From the NCBI GenBank assembly GCA_963930775.1, contig OZ005690.1:9636411-9700410 (forward strand): 64,000 nt of DNA. Direction: 5' to 3'. The notes under the pieces were generated by a model, which searched no databases, was not told the DNA's origin, and worked only from the letters and a program-made list of their open reading frames with translations. Source of the DNA: Cliona cf. orientalis (taxonomy: Eukaryota > Porifera > Demospongiae > Clionaida > Clionaidae). The position numbers and the translations under genes were made by a program. Shown piece by piece: positions 2,158 through 62,192 of this stretch (position 1 is the stretch's first letter; every line of letters begins with the position of its first letter).

Positions 2158-4170
2158 TAGTTACACACTAAGTAGAAAAAAACAAAATAAATTAATTCAC
2201 GGGGGGTTTGGGAGCACTTGAGGAGATCATTTTTACATGGGCATGCAGAATGGGTCGTAACTAGAGATTTGACCTTGGGGAATTTTGATTCACACCCTAA
2301 AGTGAAAGTTACAACACTTTCAAGTTTCCCCATATGTTTGTGCAGGGAAGCCACGCATTTGCAATGTTTTGAGTCCCGGTGTGCGTTATTTAGAACGTGC
2401 TCGCATATCAGCGCATGCGCGCGCTGGGCATTAATGAGTCCCGGTGTGCGTTATTTAGAACGCGTTTGTATATAAGTGCGTGCCTAGGGCGTTTGAGCTC
2501 AGTTCCTCGTCTACCGGTTTCTGAAAAGAGTCGTGGTTAGGAGGGTGCAATCGAACTTTTCCTCGTTTTTACCAAGTGTTGTAAGTATAAAGTATAGCAA
2601 TCATTTAACAATTTTTAGCGTTTGGTAGGCACAGTCAAATTTTGTTGACAAATGCCTGTCCGTGCTAAGCTATGTAGCGTATGTGGCCACGCAGTGAACA
2701 ACGTTCGTGCTATGGCCTGTATTAGTTGTGGGGAGAGCTTCAGGAAGCGAGATCGTCCTCGTGGGACTACCCGACAAGCTGGCTATGGTAGGCAATGCCC
2801 AGAGTTTCATGATACCATAGAGCTTCCAACTGATTGGTGTCACTCTTGAATTGGTGAACATTGATGATGAGCTGCTCAGATGCCTGCGCACGTAGAAGTT
2901 CACAGCAGCGTACCTTTGATCAGAAGCCACTGGGTTTAGCTGTGTGTTACGGGTGTGGCCATCTATTGTGGAGTAGAGTTGATGGTGGTCACACCTTTCT
3001 TGTGGACAAGCCCAGTGGCATGAGCGAAGATGAGGCGCCTGCAAATGCTTACTTGCGAGCTGTACCTAGCTGTACAGTAGGATTTGTGTACTGGTACGGT
3101 GGCCTGCAACTCAGTACACTGTGCCTCAGTACTTAATGCACCTTCATACAAATTCTTTTATCTTAGGGTGTGGTTAGCTTGTAGTTATACACTAAGTAGA
3201 AAAAAATATAGAAAAATAATTCACAGGAGGATTGGGAGCATCTGGGGCTGTAATTTTTATACGGGCACGCAGAATGGGTCGAAACTAGAGATTTGACCTT
3301 GGGGAATTTTGATTCACGCCTTAGAATTAAAGTTACAGCCCTTTTAAGTATCCCCATATGTTTGTATAAGAAGCCACGCAGTTGCAATGTTTTGAGTCCC
3401 GGTGTGCGTTAATTAGAAAATCGCTAGGCTAGTACATGCATAGGCTACCATGCAGCTGGTATTGTATCCAGAGGCTTGTTGAATGGATGAAGAATCAGCC
3501 ACAGCAGTAGCTCTCCCATTTTGCTGAGAGGTAAGTGGCGTAATACAGCTATAGTTTTACATTATGCATGCGTAGATGTGTGGGAAAGTACATGGAGTTG
3601 AGAAACAACTAAAATTGTTTTGTGCTTTTCCCCTAGCCTTGTGTGTGTGCTATGGTGATTTTGAGTACTAGTAGGATGTAACATGTTGCAGGGGCCACTG
3701 GTACTGAACCTCAATTATGGCATTCCACCAGTACTTTGTGGTGTTTTATTTTTTCTGCTTAGTGTATTGGCTTGCTTGAAAAAAAAAAAAGATTTTTAAT
3801 TAATTAATTCAGGGGGGAACTGGGAGCACTTGGGGACATAATTTTTACACCGGCGCGCAGAATGGATCGAATGCAGAGATTTGACCTTCAGGAATTTTGA
3901 TTCACGCCTTAGAATCAAAGTTACGGCCCTTTGAAGTTTCCCCATATGTTTGTACAGGGAAGCCATGCGTTTGCAATGTTTCCGCCCACGCGCTACGTGA
4001 GGGGCGGGGCCACGCGCGCACATAAACGTGACGACCTTTACCAACTTTTTGACAAAATTTAAATTTAGGCTGCCTGCTTGCATTGTATGGTTCCACTATG
4101 CACCCAGCTCGATTATATGGTGGTTTTTGGACAATTTTTTTTTCTGCTTAGTGTTCAGGTCGCCTTGAAA
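2158..4170. repeat. Composite insertion with three 230-bp repeats
   Basis: Three diverged direct copies of a roughly 230-bp unit occur at about 2,158-2,390, 3,181-3,413 and 3,781-3,990. They share GGGAGCA, GAGATTTGACCTT, GGAATTTTGATTCAC and CCCCATATGTTTGT blocks, and two start with TAGTTA-ACACTAAGTAGAAAA. A 30-bp GAGTCCCGGTGTGCGTTATT-type direct repeat lies at about 2,371 and 2,435. Between the first two units lie two short cysteine-containing frames, so the whole may be a decayed transposon inserted into the TTAA element. Confidence 0.6.
2652..2849 (+). pseudogene. Small CxxC zinc-ribbon-like reading frame
   Basis: A 65-codon frame starts with MPVRAKLCSVCGHAVNNV and has a second CxSC pair followed by a basic stretch (SFRKRDRPRG), as in a zinc ribbon. 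About 120 bp downstream another frame reads VCYGCGHLLWSRVDGGHTF, then VDKPSGMSEDEAPANAY, which looks like coding sequence of the same element in a different frame. Together they suggest a decayed transposon protein, possibly the cysteine-rich N-terminus of a Helitron-type protein, but no helicase or Rep motif is visible. Family unproven. Confidence 0.35.
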
Positions 4171-4935
4171 AAAAAAAAAAAAAAAAAAAAAGCTAATTAG
4201 GCCTAATTAAGCTTGTGGGCGTGTTCCTGGCACTGTGTGGAGTGTGTGCGTGTGCGTTAATGCAGGTTTTATTGCTTCCGATTGGGCGTGGCTTCACGGG
4301 CCAGTGCTTGGATATCGGGGCCTGGGACTTGGCCGCGGCGATAGGTGGGCGTGTCCCGGATGCGGTGGTGACCTTTGCACCCGGCCAGGAGGCTTCGGGG
4401 GCGTGGCAGGAGGTCAAAGGTGAGGCCATGTCAGTTAATGAGGCACTGTACGCCGGTGCGATCGAGGGGACTGTACGGCTGGACGGAGGCTGACGATGGT
4501 TTGAAGCGGATGTGGTTGCGATGACGTGTTGTTACCCCGCCCACACAGGAAATGAGGTGAGCTCTTGTGTGGGCGGTGTGGCAGAACGGCCTCCAAGTGT
4601 TGTGTGTGTTTTGGCCTTGAGGAAGCTGTGTGTTTTAATTGGGATTGATTGTGGGCTTCCGGTGGACATCCGGTGGCCAGTGGGCACTTGATTGAGAATG
4701 ATGGTCCTTGAGGCGCAGGGTGGTGCTGTTTTGGGCGTGGCCTGGCCCCTCCCTTCCGGCTCGGCTTCCGGTGCATGGAGGATACTAAATGAACACTTCC
4801 GGCTCTAGCAGCCACACCCCTGAGACCTGTGCAATTAAAAGGGCGTGGTTACACAACATGCACCTCACTAATGACTTTGATGTGGTTTAAGTGTCATATC
4901 CCCCACCTCACGCCCACGCAATTTAATTAAAAAGT

Positions 4936-7246: not shown

Positions 7247-10200
7247 GTATATACACACAGCAATGCAGCTTATCTCAGCAGATAATATAAAGAACACCCA
7301 CTCAATCACTTCATACATTAACATCACAATCAGTACAATTATTTCTCTAATATAATTTCGAAGTCAAATTAAACCTATTCAGACATGTACGTACAGTAAC
7401 ATAATATTCAAAAAGTCGTGTACCATACCATGTATGTGTGTGTATGTGTGTGTAGCTTGTGTATATGTACGTAATGTTATTTGTTGGTAGTTGCCTAGCA
7501 ACCATATTTTTTATAGGCAATTTGCTGGCTATGGGAAGGGGTTGGGTCATCGTAAAGTAGGCCAATGATGAACAGAGGTCAACTACGAATAAAATAATTA
7601 TCTGATAGTAATTGGGATTCATTCGACAATGCATCTCATGCACCTCAATTACTGGCAGATAACTATTATGTGTGTGTACGAGTATATACACTGTCATGTG
7701 TGAGCGCATTTGTGTGTATCAATGGATATGTACGTATACGCTATGCATTTTGTGTTAGTGTATACAATGTGCATGTGCATTCAATAATGATCGAGTCTGC
7801 ATTATACAATTAAACACAGCAATCCACCATCTTCCACCACATTATTAATATTAGACTAAAGTCTTGTCACTGTTTTTGTTAGCATAACAATTCCCCCTTC
7901 ACTATTATGGATATGCAGTTCATTCATTATCACTACACACAAATCTCAGAAGTGTATATCCACATACCATTAATTTTGGGATCTGCTCATTGATTTATAG
8001 GGAAATAATTTACTAATAATAATCTGCCATGTCTAATTGGGACTGCTGTGTGTACAATAATTATTCCCCAATTTGTAAGTGAATAATATGTATGTTTGTG
8101 TTTAATTGTCTAGGCCTATTAGAAGCCTTAGATCTAGTTTAACTGTCCAACACAACATTCTGACTATAATATATATATAAGTTTTGCATTTTGGCCTGAT
8201 CCATAATTATAATAATTATTATACTTAGTGAGATAGCACAATATAAATGAGGTGATGAGAATATGAGTCATGAGGTCACCACAAACTTCTGTCTTGTGGT
8301 CATAGAGGCTTACATGCATGACACAAAGGGCAGTGAGCATCTGCCAGCTGGAGACTGTCACAAACCACTCCATAGTATCGTTCAGCCACATAGGGCTTAT
8401 CAAGACCCTTGGTAGTGCCCCACAAGGGCTGGAGTGGGTTACTGGCACTGTAGTGGTTTAGAGCCCTGAATGCTTAAAGACCATGGAAGCATCTGACATG
8501 CTCTTTAATTCATTACGGGCAATACTGTGCAAGGTGGCTGTTGCCATCCAGGCAGATGCACCTACAACCAGAAAGAACTTAGCGAGTACCTCTTAGTGAA
8601 ATGGGAATTTCATAGCATACCAATGTGCTTCATATATATCTCTCCCTTCACTAGTTCACTCTTCATCACTACACACAAATCTCACATGTGCACACACACA
8701 GACCATTTGGGATCTGATCATTGTTTTTAATTATCAAAACTAATGAATTTCACATGATGCACACACAATATTAATGCAGACTCATAATGAATGCAAATAT
8801 TATTATATATAATGTACAGACACGTACTCACTATATGTACACATATAACATGAAGAGCCTGGGCACATGGCTGTGTGTAGCTATGCATACAATGTCATAC
8901 ATAAAAATATATGTCCCTTCAGGTGAGTATTAATTTTTGTGGGTACTAGTCTTAGACTAATATTTTTGCAGATTGGCCCAAAAACGCAAACATTAATTTG
9001 TATCTGCTAACTAGTAATATTCACAGTAGAATATTATTAGAATGTGTCAATCCTGTACCATTATCACATACAAACAGCTAGGGAAATACACACCTGTGTC
9101 TGGTTTGCTAATCTAATCTCTACTGCCACCTCATAAAAACTGGAAATACAATGTCATAGGATCAACTATTCCATAAATGGAAGTGCAAAGAAAGATTAAG
9201 CACACAGTCATGATAAGTACATGTACTCTGCATATACACACATGGAAATAAGTTGACACATAGTACATACACACACACTCCTCACAGGAATCCCTTAATA
9301 ACTATAATATTATTATGGATATGGAGCTATTATGCTAGGAAATTTAATATGTGTAGGAGAGGTCGCAAAAATTATTATGATCTACCAAGCCAGGCCAGTG
9401 GGGGACATTATGTATAGCCAATGGAACTAGATCTAGAATGACCATTCCACATGCCTCATATTATTATGGACAGTTCACTCTTTATCACTACATTCACATG
9501 TTATACCGGTATTAAAAGTGCACATACAGACTTTCAAGAGAAGAACCAAACTTAATATGAGGGAATTTGCAGCCCCGGCAAAAAAAAGATCCAAAATTTT
9601 AAGCTCTGAGGCCTACTGTCAGTAACGATTATGAGATATCTATTGATTTTATTGTGAAAATAAATGGATATTGAAAATGGGGATCTCAGCCGCCTTCTTT
9701 CAGCGTGTGTGTGTGGATGTGTACTCTTCTGAGCAGCTGCAGTAATGCCTACTGGGCCAGACTCCTGTTCACTAAGCAGACACATGATTCATTAGCTGGA
9801 GAGATGGAGAAATTGTAACGAGAAAATTAATGTGTAGCTACATAGCCAGCCCAAGCTTAGAATCTGATGATACAAAAATGCACTCAACAGTCCATTATTT
9901 CCCACTGTCTTTGTTAGCATAACAATGTGCACCATCTGTCCCTTCACCAGATCACTCTATCACTTAATCTATACAGAAATCTCACATGTGCACACACACA
10001 GACCATTTGGGATCTGCTCATTGTTTTATCAAAACTAATGAATATCACTCTATTAGTATAGAACATACATTGTGATCATGCGCACAAATTAATCGTAATG
10101 CACACACAATGAATACAATGTACCAGTAGTCACTACACATCCAGGGATAAAAATAAATATTGTACACACATGTTGCTAGTACATGTAAAAGGAAGTGGTT

Positions 10201-14140: not shown

Positions 14141-15141
14141 GGTACCATTTAATTGCGTGGGCGTGAGCGTCAGGAATGGCTAATTCAATTAGCGAATCGT
14201 GAAGGGGCGTGGCCGAAGAGGCCATACGAGTGCTTTTGGTCGAGGGTGGGCGTGTCCAGAATCGGCCAGGGATGATTATGCGCGTGTAATTAGCGACCGG
14301 AAGTGGCCCCTGAAGAAAAGGCCGGTAATTGCCCACTTCAAAGCAAGATCAAAGCATTCTTTCTTAACTATTAACCGCAACGACAAAAAAAAAAAAAAGC
14401 TTATTAGGCCTAATTAAGCATGTGGGCGTGTTCCTGGCACTGTGTGGAGTGTGTGCGTGTGCGTTAATGCAGGTTTTATTGCTTCCGATAGGGCGTGGCT
14501 TCACGGGCCAGTGCTTGGACATCGGCGCCTGGGACTTGGCCTCGGCGATAGGTGGGCGTGTCCCGGAAGCGGTGGTGACCTTTGAACCCCGCGAGGAGGC
14601 TTTGGGGGCGTGGCAGGAGGTCAAAGGTGAGGCCATGTCTGTTAATGAGGCACTGTACGGCGGTGCGATCGAGGGGCCTGTACGGCTGGACGGAAGCTGA
14701 CGATGGTTTGAAGCGGATGTGGTTGCGATGACGTGTTGTTACTCCGCCCACACAGGAAATGAGGTGAGCTCTTGCGTGGGCGGTGTGGCAGAACGGCCTC
14801 CAAGTGTTTGTGTGTGTTTTGGCCTTGAGGAAGCTGTGTGTTTTAATTGGGATTGATTGTGGGCTTCCGGTGGACATCCGGTGGTTAGTAGGCACTTGAT
14901 TGAGAATGGTGGTCCTTGGGGAACAGGGTGGGGCTGTTTTGGGCGTGGCCTGGCCCCTCCCTTCCGGCTCGGCTTCCGGTCCATGGAGGATATTAAATGA
15001 ACACTTCCGGCTCTAGCAGCCACACCCCTGAGACCTGTGCAATTAAAAGGGCGTGGTTACACAACATGCACCTCACTAATGACTTTGATGTGGTTTAGGT
15101 GTCATATCCCCCACCTCACGCCCACGCAATTTAATGGTACC
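14141..15141. mobile_element. TTAA-flanked element, copy 2 (intact, 1,001 bp)
   Basis: The termini GGTACCATTTAATTGCGTGG and its near-complement are flanked by TTAA on both sides (14,137-14,140 and 15,142-15,145), the target preference of piggyBac-type transposases. It is almost identical to copy 3 at 59,915-60,932 (reversed), so both moved recently. An internal A-tract of about 13 differs in length between copies. It encodes no transposase and so depends on a source elsewhere. It lies between a probable splice acceptor and the start codon of the next gene, inside that gene's 5' UTR. Confidence 0.88.
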
Positions 15142-47857: not shown

Positions 47858-50800
47858 ATATATGTACCTTCAGGTGAGTATTATTTTTTTTGTGGGTACT
47901 AATGTTTTTTTGCGGATTGGCCCAAACACGCAAACTTTTGTATCTGCTAACATTATTATAGTAATACGCACTATAACAGCTGAATATTAGAATGTGACGA
48001 TCCTGTACCATTATCACATACAAATCCCAAAGTTTAGTACTCGCAAGACACGTTTCAAGCCAAAATTGCTGGAAAATGTACCTACAAATTATCACTCTAA
48101 AGTATTATTATAATCATGTGTGTACACTCTGATTGTAACCAAGTCTATCCCCAATTCTCCTGCACAATACAATTATACATACCTACAATCTTTCTCAACC
48201 TCAGCTCCTAACATGCCTTTTGTGCATGTTATGGGGTAGACCATCCCCTGACTCAAGGTATTTAACATCATTAATATTATTATTTCTATCGAGCAAAAAA
48301 ATTCCCAGACATGGAGCTATGCATTGCCTTACTATGGCAGAGTGCCTGTGTGCACACAATAATACTTGTCCATGTGAATTACCCGTTATATTATGTGGTT
48401 ATTTTGGTTTATACAATTTTGCACACATGATAAAATCTCATAATTTGAATATTCCAGATTCCTGATTGTCATTAAACCTCCACTGCATACATTTCACTGT
48501 GGTTACTGGAGCTTATCAATAGCCAGTGAGGCTATAATATTAAGTTTGCATGTGTGGGCTATCATAATAGTTTACACAATGACAGATGTACTCCTACAAA
48601 TACCTATAGTGGGTCAGCTATATTATGGAAACAGAGCTATAGTGCTAGAAAATTTAATATACTGGATAGGTCACAATAATCATTATGACGTACCCAGCCA
48701 GGCCAGTGGGGGACATTATGTATAGCCCCCTCCAATGGAACTAGATCTAGAATGACCATTCTACATGCCCCATAATAATTATTATTATTATGGACGGTTC
48801 ACTCTTTATCACTACACTCACATGTTATACCGGTATTAACATCTTCTTTCAGCGTGTGTGTGTGGACGTGTACTCTTCTGAGCAGCTGCAGTAATGCCTA
48901 CTGGGCCAGACTCCTGTTTACTAAGCAGACACATGATTCATTAGCTGGAGAAATTATAACATAATGTGTACACTGTTATAGCCAGCCCAAACTTAGAATC
49001 TGATGATACAAAAATGCACACAACAGTCCATTATCTCCCACTATAATATCACTCCATCCCTTTTTGCCACTAGCTGTCTTTGTTAGCATAACAATGTGCT
49101 CCATCTGTCCCTTCACTATTATGAACAGTTCACTCTTTATCACTACACACAAATCTCACAATGTCATGTGCACACACACAGACCATTTGGGATCTGCTCA
49201 TTAATTGTTTTTATCAAAACGAATGAATTTCACACTGTTTGTATAGAACGTTATGATCATGCTCACACAATGAATACATACACACAATGTACTGGTAGTC
49301 ACTACACATCAATATAAAAAGGGCTTATTAGTACTGTACAATGTCATGCAAAAAGGAAGTGGCTGAGTCACTACACACATCACACACATGTTGTAAAGTT
49401 TGTAGCATTAGAGTCTTATCCATGGGGGTCTGGGTTGATACCTTATGTTATTAACTAGGTGATGGTGTATTGCGCAAAGTAGATGTAGTGCAGCGTAATA
49501 ACTATTATGTCCACCAGCCTCTCCCCCTGCACCAGTATATATAGTTTGCTATAGGCAGCCATACCTTCCTCAGTGTAAAATAAAATTAATCACTGGCTCT
49601 ACACACAAATCTCACAAGACAGTGCATGCACACTGTACGTGTTTACACTTGATCTGCTTTTTCCCAAGAAATATATAGATATATTTTGCTATGGGCAGCC
49701 ATACCTTCCTCAGTGTAAAATAAATCACTGCCTCTACACACAATACAGTGCATGCACACTGTGTTTACACTCAATCTGCTTATTTCCATTATCAAAACAG
49801 TTGACATGATGAACACATGTCACCACACAAAACTGAACACCCACACAACAAAATACTTTAATAGTACACACACACAGTACACAACTGTCGTATTGTATTT
49901 TGGGTTTTGGTATTTAATGAGATTCATTGGTATGGAATAAGGGGGAGGGTAGCATTGGAATACAAGTGCTTGTTGTGACAATAATTTAATTACTGGTGAA
50001 TTGAACAAAGCTGTTCTTGTAACACAGTAAGTGGCCACACATCAGCTACCATCATTGTAAAATCTCTGGTTTCAATGTACTGGTGCCTGTTTGAGAGTAG
50101 GCACTGTCATGTGAATTTTGCATATCTTATATGTACCATGATCTGCTCACTTATTGTCACGAGTTACATAGCTACTACCTATCAAAACAGTGGTATCAAC
50201 GTTGACTCTTGAACACATCCACACATTAATTTTATATCAGCACACAAATCTGACAATATACACACACATACATACCACGCACTGTACATAATTAATAGTT
50301 ATCTGCCAGTAATATATTGGGGTGCATGAGATGCATGGTCTAATGCACCCCAATTGCTGTCAGATAACCATTTTGTTGGTAGTTGACCTCTGTTCATCAT
50401 TGGCCCACTTTATGATGACCCAACCCCTTCCTATAGCAGGCAAATTGCCTATAAAAACGTTGGTTGCTAAGCAACTACCAACAAACGTACATGTGTGTGC
50501 ATCGATGGATGTTTGCATACATTAATAATAATACTATTATGTCACATGAGTGTGAGTGTTAATACATGCATGTATAGCTGTATATACATACATCTTGTAT
50601 AATATTAATACATAATATTATTTTGATATAATTATGTGTTCAAAAATAGCTATAGAAGCTTCACTACATCACTTCATCACTCTGATTGTAACTAAATCTT
50701 TCCTTAATTCCCTTATACAAATATACCTACAGTTTTTTTTTTTTTTTTTATCTTAGCACCTAAAATACCTTCTATGCATGCATGCTTTCAATTGATGTTT

Positions 50801-51982: not shown

Positions 51983-52135
51983 CTATATTACAGAAATGGA
52001 GTTATAGTGCTAGGAAATTTAATGTGCTGGACAGGTCACAATGATCATTTAATATGAGCTACCCAGCCAGGCCAGTGGGGGACATTATGCATAGCCCCTT
52101 CCAATGGAACTAGATCTAGAATGACCATTCCACAT

Positions 52136-52218
52136 CACCCGGTACTGGAACCTTTTTGACCACTACTAGTATCAGTACCCGGGAACCCAAGTACCACCCC
52201 AAGTAATGATAGGTTCCA
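52136..52218 (+). repeat. Left terminal inverted repeat of the KDZ element
   Basis: 83 bp, matching the complement of 62,103-62,185 at 81 positions. It contains internal short repeats (GGTAC, GTACC, GGAACC) that could be transposase binding sites. Confidence 0.95.
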
Positions 52219-52329
52219 AATCTTGGCCACTAAATTTAACCCGTGTGTTACACAATTTTAGCAAGTGTTGTTCCTGTTTTAACCCTTGAACCTGCTAACC
52301 TTTCTCCACATGTGTTGCACAGTTGAAGG

Positions 52330-55300
52330 ATGGCAGAAATTGATACTGATTGGTCCAGTGGTAGGGAGCTTGATGAAGATTCAGGATCAGATGAAGAAAG
52401 TGATAACGGTGAATCTATGGTGGAACCCAAGGTTGACGTAAGTGCCAGTCAGTACTAGTCTCATGCCCAGTCCCCTTCATGCATGCGCGAGAAAGGATCT
52501 GATCAAAAGGGTCGCACTAATGCGTCTGGCTGGAATGCAATAATTGGCAATTCCGGTGTGCATACAATAGAAACTAACCACCACTTTCACGTACGTACGG
52601 ACCACACATAATTACATTCCACTAATGTCATGTGACCATGGTTCTGCAACCTGATTGGGCCACAATATACGTACCTCGAGAACAAGGAAGTGCGACCCTT
52701 TTGACAGACCCTTTCTCGCGCATGCATGAAGGGGGCTAGGCACGAGACTAAGTTAGTACATACTCTATAGGTATCCCCTAATATCCCGGCCGCAGTGCTA
52801 CGTGGCTACATATTGAAGAGTCGGTGCATCCAGCCACCAGGGTGCTGGTGCTTTGTGGCGCACATGCATATACTCGGCCCCGCGTTGTTTGTGATTACCT
52901 GTGATATTTTTTGCGATCTGCCATGACTCACAACTAGCAGTATACACATGTTCACCAGACCCTTTCTCTTGAGATTGAAGGGTATGGCTAGTGAGACTAA
53001 TAATTCATTTCATGAATTCCTCTGCAGGCTCAACTTGATAATGAGACTGATAGTGAGTCACCACACAGTGACTCAGAGATTCCAATTCCTAAGGTTAGGA
53101 CAGCGGCTATTGGCTATCCATGGCGGCACTTTGAAATATTCCTTCTACATAATTATATATAATAATTGCATTCCTGCTACAGGGAGAAGAACGTCATACG
53201 ACTCTTCTTGGAAAGCGCACCCGAAATTTCAGTACCACACAAACTGCATTGCTATCATACTACTTTGAGAATGGAATGCGTGGTGTTGGAAAGAAATACT
53301 CTGCCATCATCGACCGTGCTGCCAGTGAAACACACCTATCTACTGACCAAGTCAAGGTATCAATAATACTTCAAGTATAATTATAATTGTTATCACAAGA
53401 CTATACCGTTGCTTGATTGAAACGATGTGTGCTTATGCATGCAGAGATGGATAAAGAAACGCTCCTTTAGAAGGAAGCATGCTAAACCATCCCCAGATGA
53501 ACAAAGACCCGTAAAGAAGGTGAATATAACAGCCTGGCAACAATTTTTAAAGGAATTTAAAGATACGGAGGGTAAGACAATAAAAATCAGTATGGGTATA
53601 TATTAGTATGTAATATTAGCCTTGCTGGAGTGCGGCTACCAATCAAAAACAACTTTTGCCTGGAGATAAATTACCTTTCATTGATCCCAGGTATATTTTG
53701 TCCTGGCATATAGAGCCAAACCAAAGCTGAGTTTTGCCATGCTTCTATATATATACCCTAAATGCATGACCATGGACATAATATAGCAACATGTATGTGC
53801 ATGTATGCAGTTACTGTTTATTGATTTTATCATGCATGTAGTTATTACAGTGTCTAAAGTACTCTATATTCCTATAATACTTTAGAACAAATAATTTACC
53901 GATACATATATTATTGTGTATTACAGATGGGAAGAGTGCACTGAGCATCAGTGCTAGCCACTTCAATAAAGTAGCTAGTACTGCTTATAAAGAAATATCA
54001 GATGAGTATAAGCAGCACTTAATGGAGAGCTCAGGTCCAAGGATTCAACAGATGTCACGCAAGTCCATTATGAAATGCGGAGAGAAGGCCTTTAAAAATA
54101 TTCAAAAGGAGGTATATACATGATATGCATGATTTGTAGGCATCTTAATAATATTATTGTAACTGTCTCTAATTTCAGACTACTGTAGGAACTTTAATTC
54201 CCTGTGCATGCTCAATTGTGGGTGTATTATAATATTATATATATATGTATTCTGAATAGTACCATTTGTGCACCTTTCTTGATTGTGACGCTATGAATTG
54301 TGTGTATTAGTTTGTTGACAGTCTCCGCATGCCATGCCAAGTTTATACACTTTTTTCCAAATAAGGAGAAAAATATAGTAAACGTAGTATTGGTAGGTTC
54401 CAAAACAGTACTATATATGGTATGCTCAGGGTGCTATAATATTATTGTGCTACTTCATAACCACATCATTCTTTGTTCATGCAGTTTGACAAATTAGATC
54501 GCCTTGGTTACTCTGGTATTGGTTTTGGTTTTTTGGAGGATGATGTACATTGTGTGGGAACTCCGAAAGCCTCAACAGTCCTTAGTGATCCTCGACTGAT
54601 TGAATATTTACACTCAATCATTATTGCAAGTAGGTCATGAGCAATATTATATTATATATTGGTCTGCATGCATGCATGGGCGCTTACCCGGGAATCCGAT
54701 ATAACTTTCATATATGTTTGTATGTTAGAAGCTGCTACATTGATCCCTTGAAATGCATGCAATATATGGGCACTTGCCCAGGACACTACAGTATTATCAA
54801 ACATAGTATTACTATAATTGTATGTTTTCAGATAATCCTCCTCCACCTGTGGCCAATTCTACCACCGAACACCCTGAACAGGAGGCTTCATCAACAGCTA
54901 CTAGTCAGATAGCAGAAAAATCCAGGGCAAAAAAAATCAAGGGTATTTCAAAACGTGAAGCTTCTCAAGCCAAGGTTGGTTCTAAAACTCCTGTGGCTAC
55001 TCGCCAGTCAGCAGTCCTTAAGAGAGCCAAGGGTGTTTCAAAAACCAAGGCATCTCCTATGGCTACTCGTAAGTCAGCAGTCCTCAAGAGACTCAAACAA
55101 ACCAAGGTGTCTCCTATGGCTACTCGTAAATCAGCAGTCCTCAAGAGACTCAAAGAAACCAAGGTGTCTCCTATGGCTACTCGTAAATCAGCAGTCCTCA
55201 AGAGACTCAAGGGCATTTCAAAAAATAAGGCTTCTCCTATGACTACTCGTAAGTCAGCAGCCCTCAAGACTCTCAAGGGGATGGCAAAAAACAAGGCTGA

Positions 55301-56501
55301 ATCAAGTATGACTACTCACAAGTCAGTTGACCCTAAGAGAGCCAAGAACTTTCCAAAAAGCAAGGCTTCTACTAGCAAGTCGACAGTCAGGGAATCCAAA
55401 GATGCTGTTGAAACCGATATGGCTACACGCAAGCTGACAGCAAAGAAACCCAAGGTTACAGCCTCTAGAAAGATTACCACTGCTTATTCTAGGATACTAG
55501 CGTTGAAATCTCAGCTTTCTAAAGACTCACAAGGTGATGAGAGCGACAGTAGTAACTCTGATACATCTATGAATTCTCAAGACACAGCTACGTGTACATC
55601 CACATTCAAGAAGACTGAATGTGCAAACTCATCCATATCTCTTGCTGATCCTGAGATTCCTGAAATAGAGCCGGGTAGTTCCAATGATCTAATATCAGAA
55701 TCAGTTTGGATATCCAGCCTAGGACTGTACCAGCATGACCGTGAAGTACTTTTATCCGACAGGTGGCTTAATGATAATATCGTTTATGCAACCGAAAAAC
55801 TTTTAAGCCAGCAGACCAAGGATGCAAATATCTATGGATGGCAGAGCCCACAGTTAGTGAAAACGAAATTTAAGGTCCTACCTCCCAAATGTAAATACAT
55901 TCAGGTTTTGAATGTGCATCAGTCCCATTGGATTACCATTTCCAATATCAGTATCCATGACGACACACATTCTAATAATTCAGTATCAATCTACGATAGT
56001 GATTTTTACGCACGTCCAAGTCTATCAACAAGGATGCAGATTTGCTCCTTAGTGAAACCAACTTCCAAACTTTTCAAGTTTGATGTCTTGAACACAATGG
56101 CACAACCTAATGCTCATGATTGTGGTATGTTTGCACTAGCGTGTGCTACTGACCTAGCCCATGGTCGCGACCCAGTGCTGTCGGAATGGGATCTAGATGA
56201 TAACACTATGAGAAAACATCTTGTTGAGTGTTTAGAAAGGGGCTATATTTCACCATTTCCAGTGAAAAAAACTCGGAGAATTCCACTTGGGAGTCGTGTG
56301 CGCCGAACCGTCGAGGATCAAATATACTGTATATGTCGATTGCCCAACCACAACAAGGATTTAGCGATGATTTATTGCAATGTTTGCCGAGAATGGCACC
56401 ATGAAAAATGCATGGACATAAATATCGATGATTACAGTGGCAAGGAGAAGCCTTGGATGTGCCCAAATTGTGTGAAATTCATGGACTCTCTTGAGCAATA
56501 G
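52330..56501 (+). CDS. KDZ-element accessory protein: homeodomain-like, Ulp1 (C48) protease, PHD finger
   Basis: Exons: 52330-52437, 53028-53093, 53183-53356, 53445-53571, 53927-54111, 54485-54629, 54832-56501, all in phase, about 824 codons. The order is: an acidic start; a homeodomain-like segment (about 70-127) ending QVKRWIKKRSFRRK; a helical segment (about 144-200, AWQQFLKEF, ISDEYKQHL) that faintly recalls an HMG box; and basic repeats of ATRKSAVLKRLK (about 312-425). A Ulp1/SENP peptidase follows with WLNDN, the histidine of QSHW (about 634), the aspartate of YDSD (about 657), and the glutamine and cysteine of QPNAHDCGMFA (Cys about 698). Last is a C4HC3 PHD finger (766-818; YCICRLP, WHHEKC, WMCPNC). 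Predicted to remove SUMO and bind chromatin and DNA in the nucleus, perhaps to protect or target the transposase. Activity is inference. Confidence 0.85.
52458..52748. mobile_element. MITE in intron 1 of the Ulp1/PHD gene
   Basis: Inverted ends of about 60 bp (GTCTCATGCCCAGTCCCCTT, later AAAAGGGTCGCACT) enclose 291 bp, with TA on both sides (52,456-52,457 and 52,749-52,750). Related to the 56-bp hairpin at 6,374. Confidence 0.85.
54961..55300 (+). repeat. Coding tandem repeat (57-bp and longer units)
   Basis: Five to six units encoding ATRKSAVLKRLK plus a short linker (for example ETKVSPM) follow one another inside the last exon. Two adjacent units of 57 bp are almost identical in DNA, so the array is young. 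Lys/Arg-rich units resemble histone-tail or nuclear-localisation-like sequence. Confidence 0.85.
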
Positions 56502-56683
56502 AACTCTTCAAGATGTAGCTACACATACAATGGATTCTTCATGCTATCAATCTTGTTACATTATTATTATTATCTACAGTACGATAATATTATTACTAGT
56601 ATAATATCATTATAATACTTTGATGTCGCAATTGCCACAAAAATTATACAACATTGTTTTATAATAATAGTACATAACTATTA
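56502..56683. other. Spacer between convergent KDZ-element genes
   Basis: 182 bp, AT-rich with ATTATTATT runs on both strands; must carry the 3' ends of both transcripts. No canonical AATAAA is visible on either strand. Confidence 0.5.
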
Positions 56684-59600
56684 CTAATAATCAGCCTCAT
56701 AGTCAGATTCTGATTCGGATGAATCACTGTAGTACTCTGGTATAAGCGAGTTAGAATCAGTAGCTGCTTCATATCCTTCCCAGTCCAGCTTTTGTGGAAT
56801 ATTGATGGTAGCACTGATTGGAAATATTCTACATTCTTGGTGAAGCTTGTCAATCCTTCGGAACAACGAATGGAGTAGTGCAATGGCACCTCTACTGAAA
56901 GGATTGGACTCGGAAATTTGTGCCTGCTTCATCTGATCAATCAACATCAACAGTAATTTTCGCTGTTCAGCATAAAAATGAATGGTATTTGCCATTTCAC
57001 TTTCGAGAAGAACAATTTCCTCATTGCTACGCTTCATTTGTAGGTAGGCTTCAAGTATTTCTTGATGTGGCTTGCTTGAAGTAGTATCAGCATGGAGTTT
57101 AGAGGAAAGAACTTCTGGATCCAAGGCTTCGTCCAGTGTAATTTGAGTGGATGAACTGTTAACAACTAACTGGCAGATATTATACTCTTCCAACAATGTT
57201 CTCAATCTCTTTGTTTCACTGGTCACCTGACGTGATAATTTCTTTGCAATCTTTTGACCATCTACAAGCAATAGGTGACAATGATCACAGTATGATGGTA
57301 ACAGTATTCCGGCTAGTATATACATTGTGGGATTGCAAGTTAGCTATGCAACACACCTGCATATTTAGACTTCAGTCGTAACAAAAACTTTCTCCTAACG
57401 GAGGAAGCCCACAGGCACCGATCGAAGAAATTAAGCTTCTCTAAACAGTATGCGTGCTCCAATTCTTGATAATCCTTATCAGAAGGGTTCCATCGATAAC
57501 GCACACTGTTCTTCTTCTCCAGCTCCTTAAGCTCACGATCCAACCTGCATAATTATAATACACAAGGATGAAACAGCTTTGCACCTATTAGACTGTCGAT
57601 CCCTATGCAGCCCCTTCCCACCATTTCAAATGGATACAATAGTTTGCAGAAAGGAAGACGAGATTACTCTTAATCTGTATCTACCTATAATAATATGTGG
57701 CAACTCAAAAGAATCTGTGGATAAAACGTACTGTGATAACTGCGTTTCACTGGATGAATCACTTGACACCACATTGTCCCTGTGATTTTAAACGAAGTGT
57801 TACGTTAACAATGGACGTTATGCTCTATTATAAACCAATAATGCATGGAGAGAAGGAGAAAGGAGGGGGGGTGGGGAGGAGAGGGGAGAGCGGTGAAGTG
57901 AAGAGATGGGGGTGGGGACAAGACTGGAGAAAGGTGGTGTGCAAGTTGGTGGGTGGGTGGAAAATTCTCCACCACTAAAGAACATACCTCAACTTGTAAA
58001 ATGAATGTAACATTTGGAAATAAACCTTCTTCCACTCGGGGATATCTGAATGATCACGTTATTGTAAAGTAAGTGGCTAGGTGATGACGTAAAGAGGTAA
58101 TTACAAACTTAATGTTATGTTGCCGTAGCCACCAATACTCAGTGAAATTCTTTCATCTGTAAGCCACTCTTTCACCTGATCTTCATGGATATTTCCACCT
58201 GTATGGCATTGGATCATTGGATCTTAAACTTGCACATTATTTTACATACTTTGAGCTGTCAGGTTTGCAAACGTCTCTTCTGACAAATTCTTCATTTGTT
58301 GTGCCCGTTCCCATCGCACCACAAGTAGATGGGCTAATCATGAGTAGTTAATATCACCAAATAAAATTAAATTATCTTAAATTTGAGGGCCTATGGCCAA
58401 CAATTCTCTTTGATGTGGTCATTATAACACCTCCCAAAGCATAGCCTCCCTTGAGATACACGTAGTGATGATCCTTACCAAGCTTCACTTTAGTTTTCAT
58501 CCCATAGCATGCTAGTGCATGTGCTAGAACATCTCTCCTATGGGCTGGCCGCATTTCTTTTGTCATCCTTCCAAAGCGACGTAGATAGGACCATAGCCTC
58601 TCCATCGTCTCTCCATCACTTAGACCTACCCCTTCACATCTCAAAGGACCAAACAACATCTATGAACACATCATGCAAAAGCAAAATGATAATTATTATT
58701 ACACCACAATAATTATTGTGGTATATACCTGGCATGAAGCAGAATGGCCGTAACAGTGAAATGTGGGCAAACAGAGAGTTATTCGCTGCAGCATGTCATT
58801 TCTTCCAGCTGACTGCTTTGTACAACACATTTTATAATTACTATATAGCTTATCAGCGAATTAGACGTCCCATTCTATACCTTGAGATGCTTATACAATG
58901 TACAAGCAATATCATACATTACATAAATTTCCACACTTTCTGTACTTCTTTCAATCAGCCTATCCAGGATAAACTCACCATAAGCCAAGCTAAAGTTTGT
59001 AAAAAAAACGTAATCTTGTTCCCCTTGATATTAACATACATGTACATGTACCGTTCCCCATGCTTCAAGTCCAAAAATAGAACTGGAAACTCATGACGAC
59101 AGGCACATCCAAACAAACCAGTCTCGTCAAGTGCTTTATACCTTGAGGAACTTCGTAAAGCATCTCCAGCCAAAAAGTTACTGCAGTTCTACAAATGTTA
59201 ATGAATGTGGATTGGTAGTAGAAGATAAACCTACTGAATTTTCATGTACATACCCTGATGTATGTATGCATAGTATAGTATAATAGTATATAACTGGACG
59301 TACATTTTTCATCAGAGTATGTGTCTTAGATCCTGCAACGTGTTCGTCAACACATGATTGCTCAACAAAGAACAGATGCCCTTGAACAGCAGGTCTATGA
59401 CTAACACCTGCAGCTTTTTTCCGTGGGAGTCCAAAGAGAGCATCCATAGCATAGACTATTCTGCCTTCACTCTACATTGAGGTACACACACACACATACA
59501 CATATGTACAATATACACATACAAAGGAAAAAAAAACAAAGGTGTAAGGCTGCCATTTACTCTCTCTGGAGCTTACTGACCATGTAGGACCCCCTGGGCA

Positions 59601-60654
59601 CTATGCAGAGGTTCACAAGCCGGCATGTTTTTTTTTAATGTTTTCCTGGACTAATACAACTTGCATGCATGGTGTTGGTACCACAAGTCCTATACCAGAT
59701 TCTTGGCACTATCAATGTCACGTAACTGCTTTGATTAGTTTGTCCACGACCCTTGATTGCTAGGCAATATCATGACACACAGTGCATACACACACTTTAA
59801 GATACTTATTACCTTAGGACAAGCCGGGCAAATATTACCATGATCAAGATCACTAGAGAGATGACTCAGGTGCCTCATTTGATGCTTAAAGAATCTTAAT
59901 GATAATACATTTAAGGTACCATTAAATTGCGTGGGCGTGAGGTGGGGGATATGACACCTAAACCACATCAAAGTCATTAGTGAGGTGCATGTTGTGTAAC
60001 CACGCCCTTTTAATTGCACAGGTCTCAGGGGTGTGGCTGCTAGAGCCGGAAGTGTTCATTTAATATCCTCCATGGACCGGAAGCCGAGCCGGAAGGGAGG
60101 GGCCAGGCCACGCCCAAAACAGCCCCACCCTGTTCCCCAAGGACCACCATTCTCAATCAAGTGCCTACTAACCACCGGATGTCCACCGGAAGCCCACAAT
60201 CAATCCCAATTAAAACACACAGCTTCCTCAAGGCCAAAACACACACAAACACTTGGAGGCCGTTCTGCCACACCGCCCACGCAAGAGCTCACCTCATTTC
60301 CTGTGTGGGCGGAGTGACAACACGTCATCGCAACCACATCCGCTTCAAACCATCGTCAGCTTCCGTCCAGCCGTACGGGCCCCTCGATCGCACCGCCGTA
60401 CAGTGCCTCATTAACAGACATGGCCTCACCTTTGACCTCCTGCCACGCCCCCAAAGCCTCCTCGAGGGGTTCAAAGGTCACCACCGCTTCCGGGACACGC
60501 CCACCTATCGCCGAGGCCAAGTCCCAGGCGCCGATGTCCAAGCACTGGCCCGTGAAGCCACGCCCAATCGGAAGCAATAAAACCTGCATTAACGCACACG
60601 CACACACTCCACACGGTGCCAGGAACACGCCCACATGCTTAATTAGGCCTAATA

Positions 60655-60689
<35 letters not shown>

Positions 60690-62030
60690 TCGTTGCGGTT
60701 AATAGTTAAGAAAGAATGCTTTGATCTTGCTTTGATGTGGGCAATTACCGGCCTTTTCTTCAGGGGCCACTTCCGGTCGCTAATTACACGCGCATAATCA
60801 TCCCTGGCCGATTCTGGACACGCCCACCTTCGACCAAAAGCACTCGTATGGCCTCTTCGGCCACGCCCCTTCACGATTCGCTAATTGAATTAGCCATTCC
60901 TGACGCTCACGCCCACGCAATTAAATGGTACCTTAATTATACAAGTGCGTGTATAAATTAATATTGCATTCAATAGTAATATGGTTAGTTAAACTCTACC
61001 TATACTCCTCAAAGCAGTCAATAAGTCTAGCATACACATCTCGACGCTATAATCAGAATAAACTATCAAATTGGATTAATATTATGGCTAGCTAAAGACT
61101 TAATTATACCTTGGATAAAATATAAGGGCACTTGAAATAAATAGCACTACAGAAATCCTTTAGTGCCACATGACATTCAAGAAGAAATGCCTCTGCCCAA
61201 TCCAGTAAATCAAAAGTGTACGCTAACTGTGGATACTGTGGACTAGCTGGCCATAGTTTGGCTCGAGTGAGAGTCAAAGCAAGATCCTCACAGTCACAGC
61301 AAACAAACAGAACATCGTGTTGAATGCCTGCAGCAAGTATAAACTCACTCAGCATCATTCAAATATGAACCATTAACCTCATACCATACTCATCGAAACA
61401 TTTAAGAGGAGTTTCTCTTCTTGTAGAACAAATGTGGCTTGGACGAACATCTATTCTTCTATTTCTGATATCACATGGTGTGTAGTGATCATTCTACAAT
61501 TATATATAATGCACTAATTATACCTCTTCAGAGTGTATCATTAATATATCACTTACCTCCCATTCTTCGGCCACATGAAAGAAATTGGCAGTCTCGTGCT
61601 GCTTACAGAAGCATTGATAACAGTAGTAAATGTTTGGCCCACATCTTTCACATTTGAACCTTGCTGCGGAGCTACATACAATGCACACTTGACCAAGTGG
61701 CATAGCACTATTCTCTGTAGCCAAAAACAAGATATTTGACCTTAACTTTTCCCACGCATTCGCTGTGGCTTTACGATGTAACTCATGCAAAGTGGGATCA
61801 GTATCCTCAGCACCATACAGCTCAGGAATTTCATTGACAGATGATCCTTCCACAGTATGAGGTGCATCAGTGGATGCTTCATGAATACTCACTGCTTGCT
61901 GCTCTCTCCCTAGTGTTTCCATGTCAGCATCCATATGACCACGGTAAACTTCTCTTGCTTCTTTCTGTGAGTGATGAGTCACCTTTAAGGGAGGTAGCTT
62001 GATTCTTTTATGAGAAGCCATATTTTTCAT
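56684..62030 (-). CDS. KDZ (Kyakuja-Dileera-Zisupton) transposase with CxC zinc cluster
   Basis: Exons, 5' to 3' on the minus strand: 62030-61557, 61493-61385, 61327-61110, 61046-61000, 59894-59813, 59471-59304, 59188-59052, 58989-58881, 58812-58729, 58659-58479, 58333-58250, 58198-58133, 58045-57988, 57544-57357, 57261-56684. They join in phase to about 860 codons. Start codons at 62,054, 62,030 and 62,021 are all possible. The N-terminus has the cysteine cluster CIVCSSAARFKCERCGPN, then YYCYQCF and HVAEEW, typical of the CxC domain tied to KDZ transposases. The core shows CPACPK, GRIVYAMDALFG, FDETG-type ETGLFGCACRH, FLDLKHGER, YDIAC and the hallmark EGVGLSDGETMERLWSYL; the acidic residues of these motifs are the expected DDE-type catalytic set. 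The C-terminal 190 residues are coiled-coil-like and acidic (SDSSESESDYEADY). It catalyses cut-and-paste movement. Confidence 0.9.
59915..60932. mobile_element. TTAA-flanked element, copy 3 (intact, inverted)
   Basis: Ends GGTACCATTAAATTGCGTGG and AATTAAATGGTACC are flanked by TTAA (59,911-59,914 and 60,933-60,936). It is near-identical to copy 2 at 14,141 in reverse orientation apart from a longer T tract. It lies in a transposase intron, about 20 bp upstream (coding sense) of the acceptor of exon 59894-59813, and so postdates the KDZ insertion or moved with it. Confidence 0.9.
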
Positions 62031-62102
62031 GCAATGCACTGGTGCTCCTAGCAACAGAAATTCAATCGCATACGGGTTAATATTAAATTCGGGCGCTAAG
62101 AA

Positions 62103-62185
62103 TGGAACCTATCATTACTTGGGGTGGTACTTGGGTTCCCAGGTACCGATACTAGTAGTGGTCAAAAAGGTTCCAGTACCGGGTG
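62103..62185 (-). repeat. Right terminal inverted repeat of the KDZ element
   Basis: 83 bp, complement of the left end with two mismatches. It ends ...CCAGTACCGGGTG and is followed by the TCCACAT duplication. Confidence 0.95.
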
Positions 62186-62192
62186 TCCACAT

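Follow-up and report, generated by a model that had tools for sequence, protein, structure and literature searches.

A 64,000-nt stretch of the genome of the sponge Cliona cf. orientalis (assembly GCA_963930775.1, contig OZ005690.1, positions 9,636,411 to 9,700,410 of the forward strand; hereafter the window) holds what is very probably a complete KDZ-superfamily DNA transposon of the cut-and-paste type, with ends that behave as in the Kyakuja lineage and with a convergent partner gene (gene 2) lying tail to tail with the transposase gene. The element is a variant of an already known type, with Kyakuja-like target cutting. A first-pass annotation made from the sequence alone had described a KDZ transposon at this place; gene 2 and a nested insertion, both found here, were absent from its account.

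The element has the defined ends and the target duplication expected of the KDZ superfamily. Its 83-bp inverted ends are 98% complementary over 83 nt, with about two differing positions, and the insertion boundaries read TCCACAT/CACCCGG on the left and CCGGGTG/TCCACAT on the right, framing the element with a perfect 7-bp duplication. TCCACAT is not rarer in the window than chance predicts (10 occurrences observed, 14.2 expected), and the evidential weight of the duplication therefore lies in its position relative to both ends. The joined flanks match two unoccupied places with 84% identity each: one alignment, of 243 columns, contains the target once (TCCACAT, 9446–9452), and the other, of 216 columns, contains it once as TCTACAT near 48755. 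Both places are members of a dispersed repeat and thus represent the pre-insertion target in paralogues, not empty alleles. The first-pass annotation had reported the 83-bp ends with two mismatches, the perfect duplication and related unoccupied sites at about 9,440 and 48,755, all of which reappeared in our analysis.

The transposase model, with exons picked by hand from reading frames and splice sites, runs in phase from ATG to stop through 16 exons, as the earlier reading had proposed, and all 15 introns are of the GT-AG type. Of the 42 homologues, 12 were compared at the 15 junctions, and every junction aligns without a gap in one or more of them, though only in 1 of 12 at junction 8 and in 4 of 12 at junction 12. 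The KDZ identity claimed earlier is supported by a strong match to the profile PF18758 (residues 312–522, E 1.5e-45, 156 bits, cut-off 26.6). The core is preceded, as is typical of the superfamily, by a CxC-type cysteine cluster, recognized as CxC2 (PF18803, E 1.1e-6, 29.2 bits, above the cut-off of 27), while CxC1 stays below its cut-off (21.4 bits, cut-off 26.9). By name, 25 of the 42 homologues are animal and 7 are fungal. In a tree of 36 rows (the window protein, 34 of the 42 homologues and P0046), the window protein falls into a five-row group with Halichondria, Amphimedon and two more proteins (support 100/99), its immediate fork being supported at 89/63; the nearest neighbour of this group is the octocoral Dendronephthya (95/90), with other sponge rows further out. 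By this placement the host would probably be a demosponge. The tree shows placement among animal sequences only, and long branches mar the fungal rows.

A search of the genome (216.8 Mb in 149 contigs, with the window on contig C2) showed that the duplication is a recurrent property of its KDZ elements. The 83-bp end sequence yielded six matches, constituting three two-ended copies of what we call family A: the window copy A1, A2 (C1:2225409–2234483) and A3 (C1:35786287–35802020). A2 carries its own 7-bp duplication, GATGATC, which makes 7 bp the length in two copies out of three. The genome holds 68 matches to the KDZ Pfam model, and for three further families (B, C and F, our own labels) ends were defined by comparing copies, with 14, 8 and 15 end matches listed, respectively. 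Opposite ends on one contig were paired and 60 bases were read per end; five unpaired matches (three of F, two of B) stayed outside the count. This produced 19 two-ended copies in four families (A 3, B 6, C 4, F 6), most of them read at the ends only, and, as far as ends are concerned, the earlier opinion that an animal copy with both termini is uncommon does not hold for this genome. Two copies lacking an intact 6-bp tip (one of C, and A3) were set aside. Among the remaining 17, all with CACCCG..CGGGTG (that is, CA..TG) tips, the 7-bp duplication is exact in 12 and has at most one mismatch in 15, including most copies of the three sister families; mispaired flanks gave no 7-bp match, exact or with one mismatch, in 272 comparisons, and no exact duplication of 4, 5, 6, 8, 9 or 10 bp was found in the 17 copies. 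Family A has inverted ends of 83 bp, and those of B, C and F extend over 60 bp or more. Among the copies with one mismatch, one is accounted for by a family F element lying within the right duplication of a family B element (C3:3756121–3775582): skipping F restores the 7 bp of B, and the F element's own 7-bp duplication takes in the last base of B. Another family, E, contributes two copies counted separately, one with an exact 7-bp duplication (CATAGAG). Families B, C, E and F thus resemble the window element in their CACCCG..CGGGTG ends, mostly 7-bp duplications and a distance of about 9–12 kb between ends. Compared copies are 99.5–99.7% alike over 9.8–10.2 kb in families C (three copies) and F (two copies), and for this reason C and F probably moved more recently than family A.

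The partner gene was likewise modelled by hand, in frame and with GT-AG introns. Its best-defined domain is a PHD finger at the end of the protein (PF00628, E 9.1e-8, 31.9 bits, cut-off 24). The segment ahead of it reaches 17.3 bits against PF02902 (Ulp1; cut-off 20.7), below the level at which a C48 peptidase would be called. It contains SHW, YDSD and DCG, an arrangement of H, D and C that we take to be of the C48 type, and the gene 2 tail is 35% identical over 265 aa to an open frame elsewhere in the genome (locus L035), which itself scores 20.6 bits against PF02902. Three results speak against the protease assignment: matches of the segment in the PDB are weak (OtDUB, two Ulp-type entries and SENP8; best E 0.099), the segment scores slightly higher for PF03421 (19.2 bits, a cut-off of 24.4 also being missed), and a single-sequence structure prediction of the Ulp1-PHD part gave a predicted local distance difference test (pLDDT) score of 34 and was not used. 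Considering the sub-threshold Pfam score, the motifs and the related frame, we describe the segment as Ulp1-like only. The start of gene 2 appears homeodomain-like on a weaker match, to PDB 2da4 (E 9e-4 with the segment as query, 0.022 with the whole protein); PF00046 finds no match in the window copy, and a hand-joined peptide of family C reaches E 7e-4 and 19.9 bits against it (cut-off 22.9). A sub-threshold HMG-box match (PF00505, E 1e-3) occurs in family C only. Among candidate proteins of about 450–1440 aa, the last third of gene 2 as query retrieved one, P0043, a 470-aa prediction (source ena) that is 98.6% identical to gene 2 across 426 residues; after these the frame changes and the PHD finger is lost, and P0043 differs from all three family A copies.

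In the comparison of A1 with A2, the ratio of non-synonymous to synonymous substitution rates (dN/dS) is 0.16 in the transposase gene, 0.24 in gene 2 as a whole and 0.20 in the last exon of gene 2; A1 against A3 gives 0.46 in the transposase gene and 0.28 in the gene 2 last exon. Both proteins therefore seem to have been constrained while family A was mobile, the A1–A3 comparison being weak when taken alone. Several observations weigh against a complete and working transposon. Only three two-ended copies of family A were found, and their main aligned pieces are 91–96% (A2) and 90–99% (A3) identical to A1. Damage is seen in A2 and A3 alike: an automatic alignment places frame-shifting gaps in the two genes of A2, gene 2 of A3 is interrupted, and the tip of one A3 end is lost, leaving its duplication unreadable. 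The A1–A3 transposase comparison counts 11 synonymous against 19 non-synonymous changes, and the whole of gene 2 gives a dN/dS of 0.62, a value that includes exons spoiled by the A3 insertion. With 20 nt between the end of the nested insert and the exon-5 acceptor, splicing might be disturbed. Beyond family A, two of the 17 counted copies have no good duplication (one 5/7, one 0/7), and the other family E copy has its repeat out of register, 3 bp from the left end.

It is an evenly balanced question whether the window element is a relic, complete in outline and immobile, with the nested element perhaps blocking transposase splicing. The small number and the damage of the family A copies and the nearness of the insert to a splice acceptor would fit such a relic, as would the divergence of 1–10% among family A pieces when set against the near identity of the compared C and F copies. 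Conversely, both A1 genes, alone among the three copies, have uninterrupted frames from start codon to stop codon and their splice sites in place (the A3 transposase frame is open too, with a 21-bp gap and a stop one codon earlier), and the two ends of A1 differ at so few positions. The earlier description as intact and possibly autonomous thus stands with regard to the open genes; autonomy is possible as judged from the reading frames, and the insert in intron 4 qualifies the word intact.

The second alternative, which we regard as possible and rather on the doubtful side, is that the element is a member of the Zisupton or the Dileera lineage in which 8 bp has locally given way to 7 bp. Zisupton and a Dileera family have 8-bp duplications (PMC12730594); they share the KDZ transposase with the window element, and Zisupton genes are also multi-exonic (PMC12730594, PMC9297572). 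In Pristionchus, Zisupton elements were reported to have inverted ends, and no target duplication was found for them (PMC9297572). The Cryptococcus elements KDZ1-3 resemble the window element in length (about 9–11 kb), long inverted ends and a KDZ plus CxC-type domain, and differ in having 8-bp or 4–8-bp duplications and demonstrated movement (PMC12810828); active KDZ movement in Chlamydomonas is cited by PMC12477816. Long inverted ends thus go with other duplication lengths in Cryptococcus, and our transposase tree contained no labelled Kyakuja, Dileera or Zisupton reference. The two fungal Kyakuja families share with the window element a KDZ transposase, 7-bp duplications and 5'-CA..TG-3' ends; unlike it, they are described as having no inverted repeats, and they carry a TET/JBP gene (PMC12730594), a domain that Pfam finds in neither the transposase nor the gene 2 protein. 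With its 83-bp inverted ends, the window element can therefore be called Kyakuja-like only. What argues against a Zisupton or Dileera affiliation is the 7-bp duplication in four families together with CA..TG ends in 17 copies, as published for Kyakuja, and the failure of an 8-bp duplication to appear in any of the 17 copies, exact or with one mismatch. The figure of around 8 bp that the first-pass annotation had given for the superfamily is correct for Zisupton and Dileera, and Kyakuja is published with 7 bp (PMC12730594). The 7 bp that it wanted checked is genuine and agrees with Kyakuja, apart from the inverted repeats.

The partner gene bears on the third alternative. The Ulp1-PHD tail has at least 142 matches in the genome, a lower bound (344 candidates at first look, 141 scored), and three of these are the family A copies. 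Of the best 10, nine have their start no more than 15 kb from a KDZ match (one at 12 kb), as against none of the remaining 132 listed. Six of the KDZ-linked matches lie outside family A; the two that were read are the family E elements, and both show the same tail-to-tail pair, with a tail identity of 42–45% and with further matches within the N-terminal half of gene 2. The Ulp1-PHD gene is thus common to A and E; in B, C and F, with a single copy compared per family, no gene 2 match appeared, and open frames run opposite to the transposase. That gene 2 is a host gene captured by chance, outside the transposon's working set, is unlikely: 133 of the at least 142 tail matches have no KDZ match within 15 kb and the single copies compared of B, C and F have no gene 2 match, but the same convergent pair recurs in two diverged KDZ elements with tail and N-terminal parts matched, the last exon shows a synonymous excess, and B, C and F have opposite-strand open frames of their own, with the sub-threshold homeodomain and HMG-box matches in C.

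If the window element is indeed a Kyakuja-like KDZ transposon with a working partner, we infer the following scheme for its joining chemistry and for the function of the partner. The transposase, with its CxC2 cluster, would recognize the CACCCG..CGGGTG inverted ends and join the element to the two target strands at cuts spaced by 7 bp, and host repair would then leave the 7-bp duplication. Gene 2, with its homeodomain-like start and its Ulp1-like and PHD end, would adopt folds in keeping with these matches, would probably bind DNA or chromatin and would probably trim SUMO-like modifiers at the element or target; the element may even be active at present. The KDZ elements of this sponge hereby gain exact ends and a measured target-cut length, and the 7-bp cut, which separates Kyakuja-like from Zisupton-like behaviour, makes a direct test of binding and joining possible. 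Should the Ulp1-like reading be true, KDZ would be a further superfamily in which SUMO-protease and PHD domains are known. C48 peptidases are present in some Cryptons (PMC3212892), and hydra Ginger1-9_HM combines Ulp1 and PHD domains, which a figure legend aligns for Ginger1 and Mutator transposases (PMC2836005); unlike here, where the tail resides in a separate gene, that of Ginger1-9_HM belongs to the transposase itself, which is of another superfamily.

Somewhat short of an even chance, in our estimation, is a broader proposal, namely that the KDZ elements of sponges represent a Kyakuja-like branch whose inverted ends are long, whose target cut is strictly 7 bp and whose system comprises two genes. 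The partner would keep its DNA-binding start (homeodomain- or HMG-like) and have its end swapped (Ulp1-PHD in A and E, another end in B, C and F), the Ulp1-PHD module being shared with unrelated repeated genes of the same genome, probably other mobile elements, as is TET/JBP among fungal transposons. We met no report of KDZ with a SUMO protease, of Kyakuja in a sponge or of an Ulp1-PHD tail in a KDZ element in a literature coverage that was incomplete and mostly without subscription journals, and the KDZ and Ulp1-PHD pair may have been published before.

Features of the KDZ element and related sites (positions in the window)
Feature	Position	Strand	Remarks
Whole element	52136–62185		DNA transposon, two convergent genes
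Left target-site duplication	52129–52135		TCCACAT
Left terminal inverted repeat	52136–52218	+	83 bp, starts CACCCGG
Right terminal inverted repeat	62103–62185	-	83 bp, finishes CCGGGTG
Right target-site duplication	62186–62192		TCCACAT
Paralogous empty site	9318–9550	+	single TCCACAT; 84% identity to joined flanks
Paralogous empty site	48628–48839	+	single TCTACAT; 84% identity to joined flanks
Transposase gene	56684–62021	-	16 exons, 882 aa; hand-built model
Transposase exons 1–8	62021–61557, 61493–61385, 61327–61110, 61046–61000, 59894–59813, 59471–59304, 59188–59052, 58989–58881	-	
Transposase exons 9–16	58815–58729, 58659–58479, 58333–58250, 58198–58109, 58045–57988, 57779–57732, 57544–57357, 57261–56684	-	
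Gene 2	52330–56501	+	7 exons, 824 aa; hand-built model
Gene 2 exons	52330–52437, 53028–53093, 53183–53356, 53445–53571, 53927–54111, 54485–54629, 54832–56501	+	
Homeodomain-like segment of gene 2	53213–53480	+	residues 69–128, spanning exons 3 and 4
Ulp1-like cysteine-protease segment of gene 2 (approximate)	55677–56261	+	H, D, C motifs SHW, YDSD, DCG
PHD finger of gene 2	56328–56471	+	PF00628
Nested element	59915–60932		1,018 bp, GGTACC ends, TTAA duplication; in transposase intron 4

Many long frames with Ulp1-PHD tails are found among the matches listed, and contig C1, with 37.5 of the 216.8 Mb, accounts for 97 of the 142. The L035 frame (1376–4816 of C1:37358500–37365500) is 1,146 aa long and ends in such a tail; it matches no Pfam transposase family, with no Pfam family at all recognized in the first 620 residues, and it may be Mutator-like. 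The opposite-strand frames of B, C and F (one copy each, L018–L029) share, by eye, an end segment with LHGHTIPQGYVKV and TAWP, which presumably resembles a plant transposon protein domain; no Pfam family was recognized in the pieces from B and F.

The nested element is absent from A2 and A3. A second complete copy of this type, with TTAA on both sides, is located at 14141–15141, and partial copies of the approximately 1-kb element, whose ends read GGTACCATTAAATTGCG, lie at 4168–4927 and 1877–2123, the places in the window being 96–98% alike.

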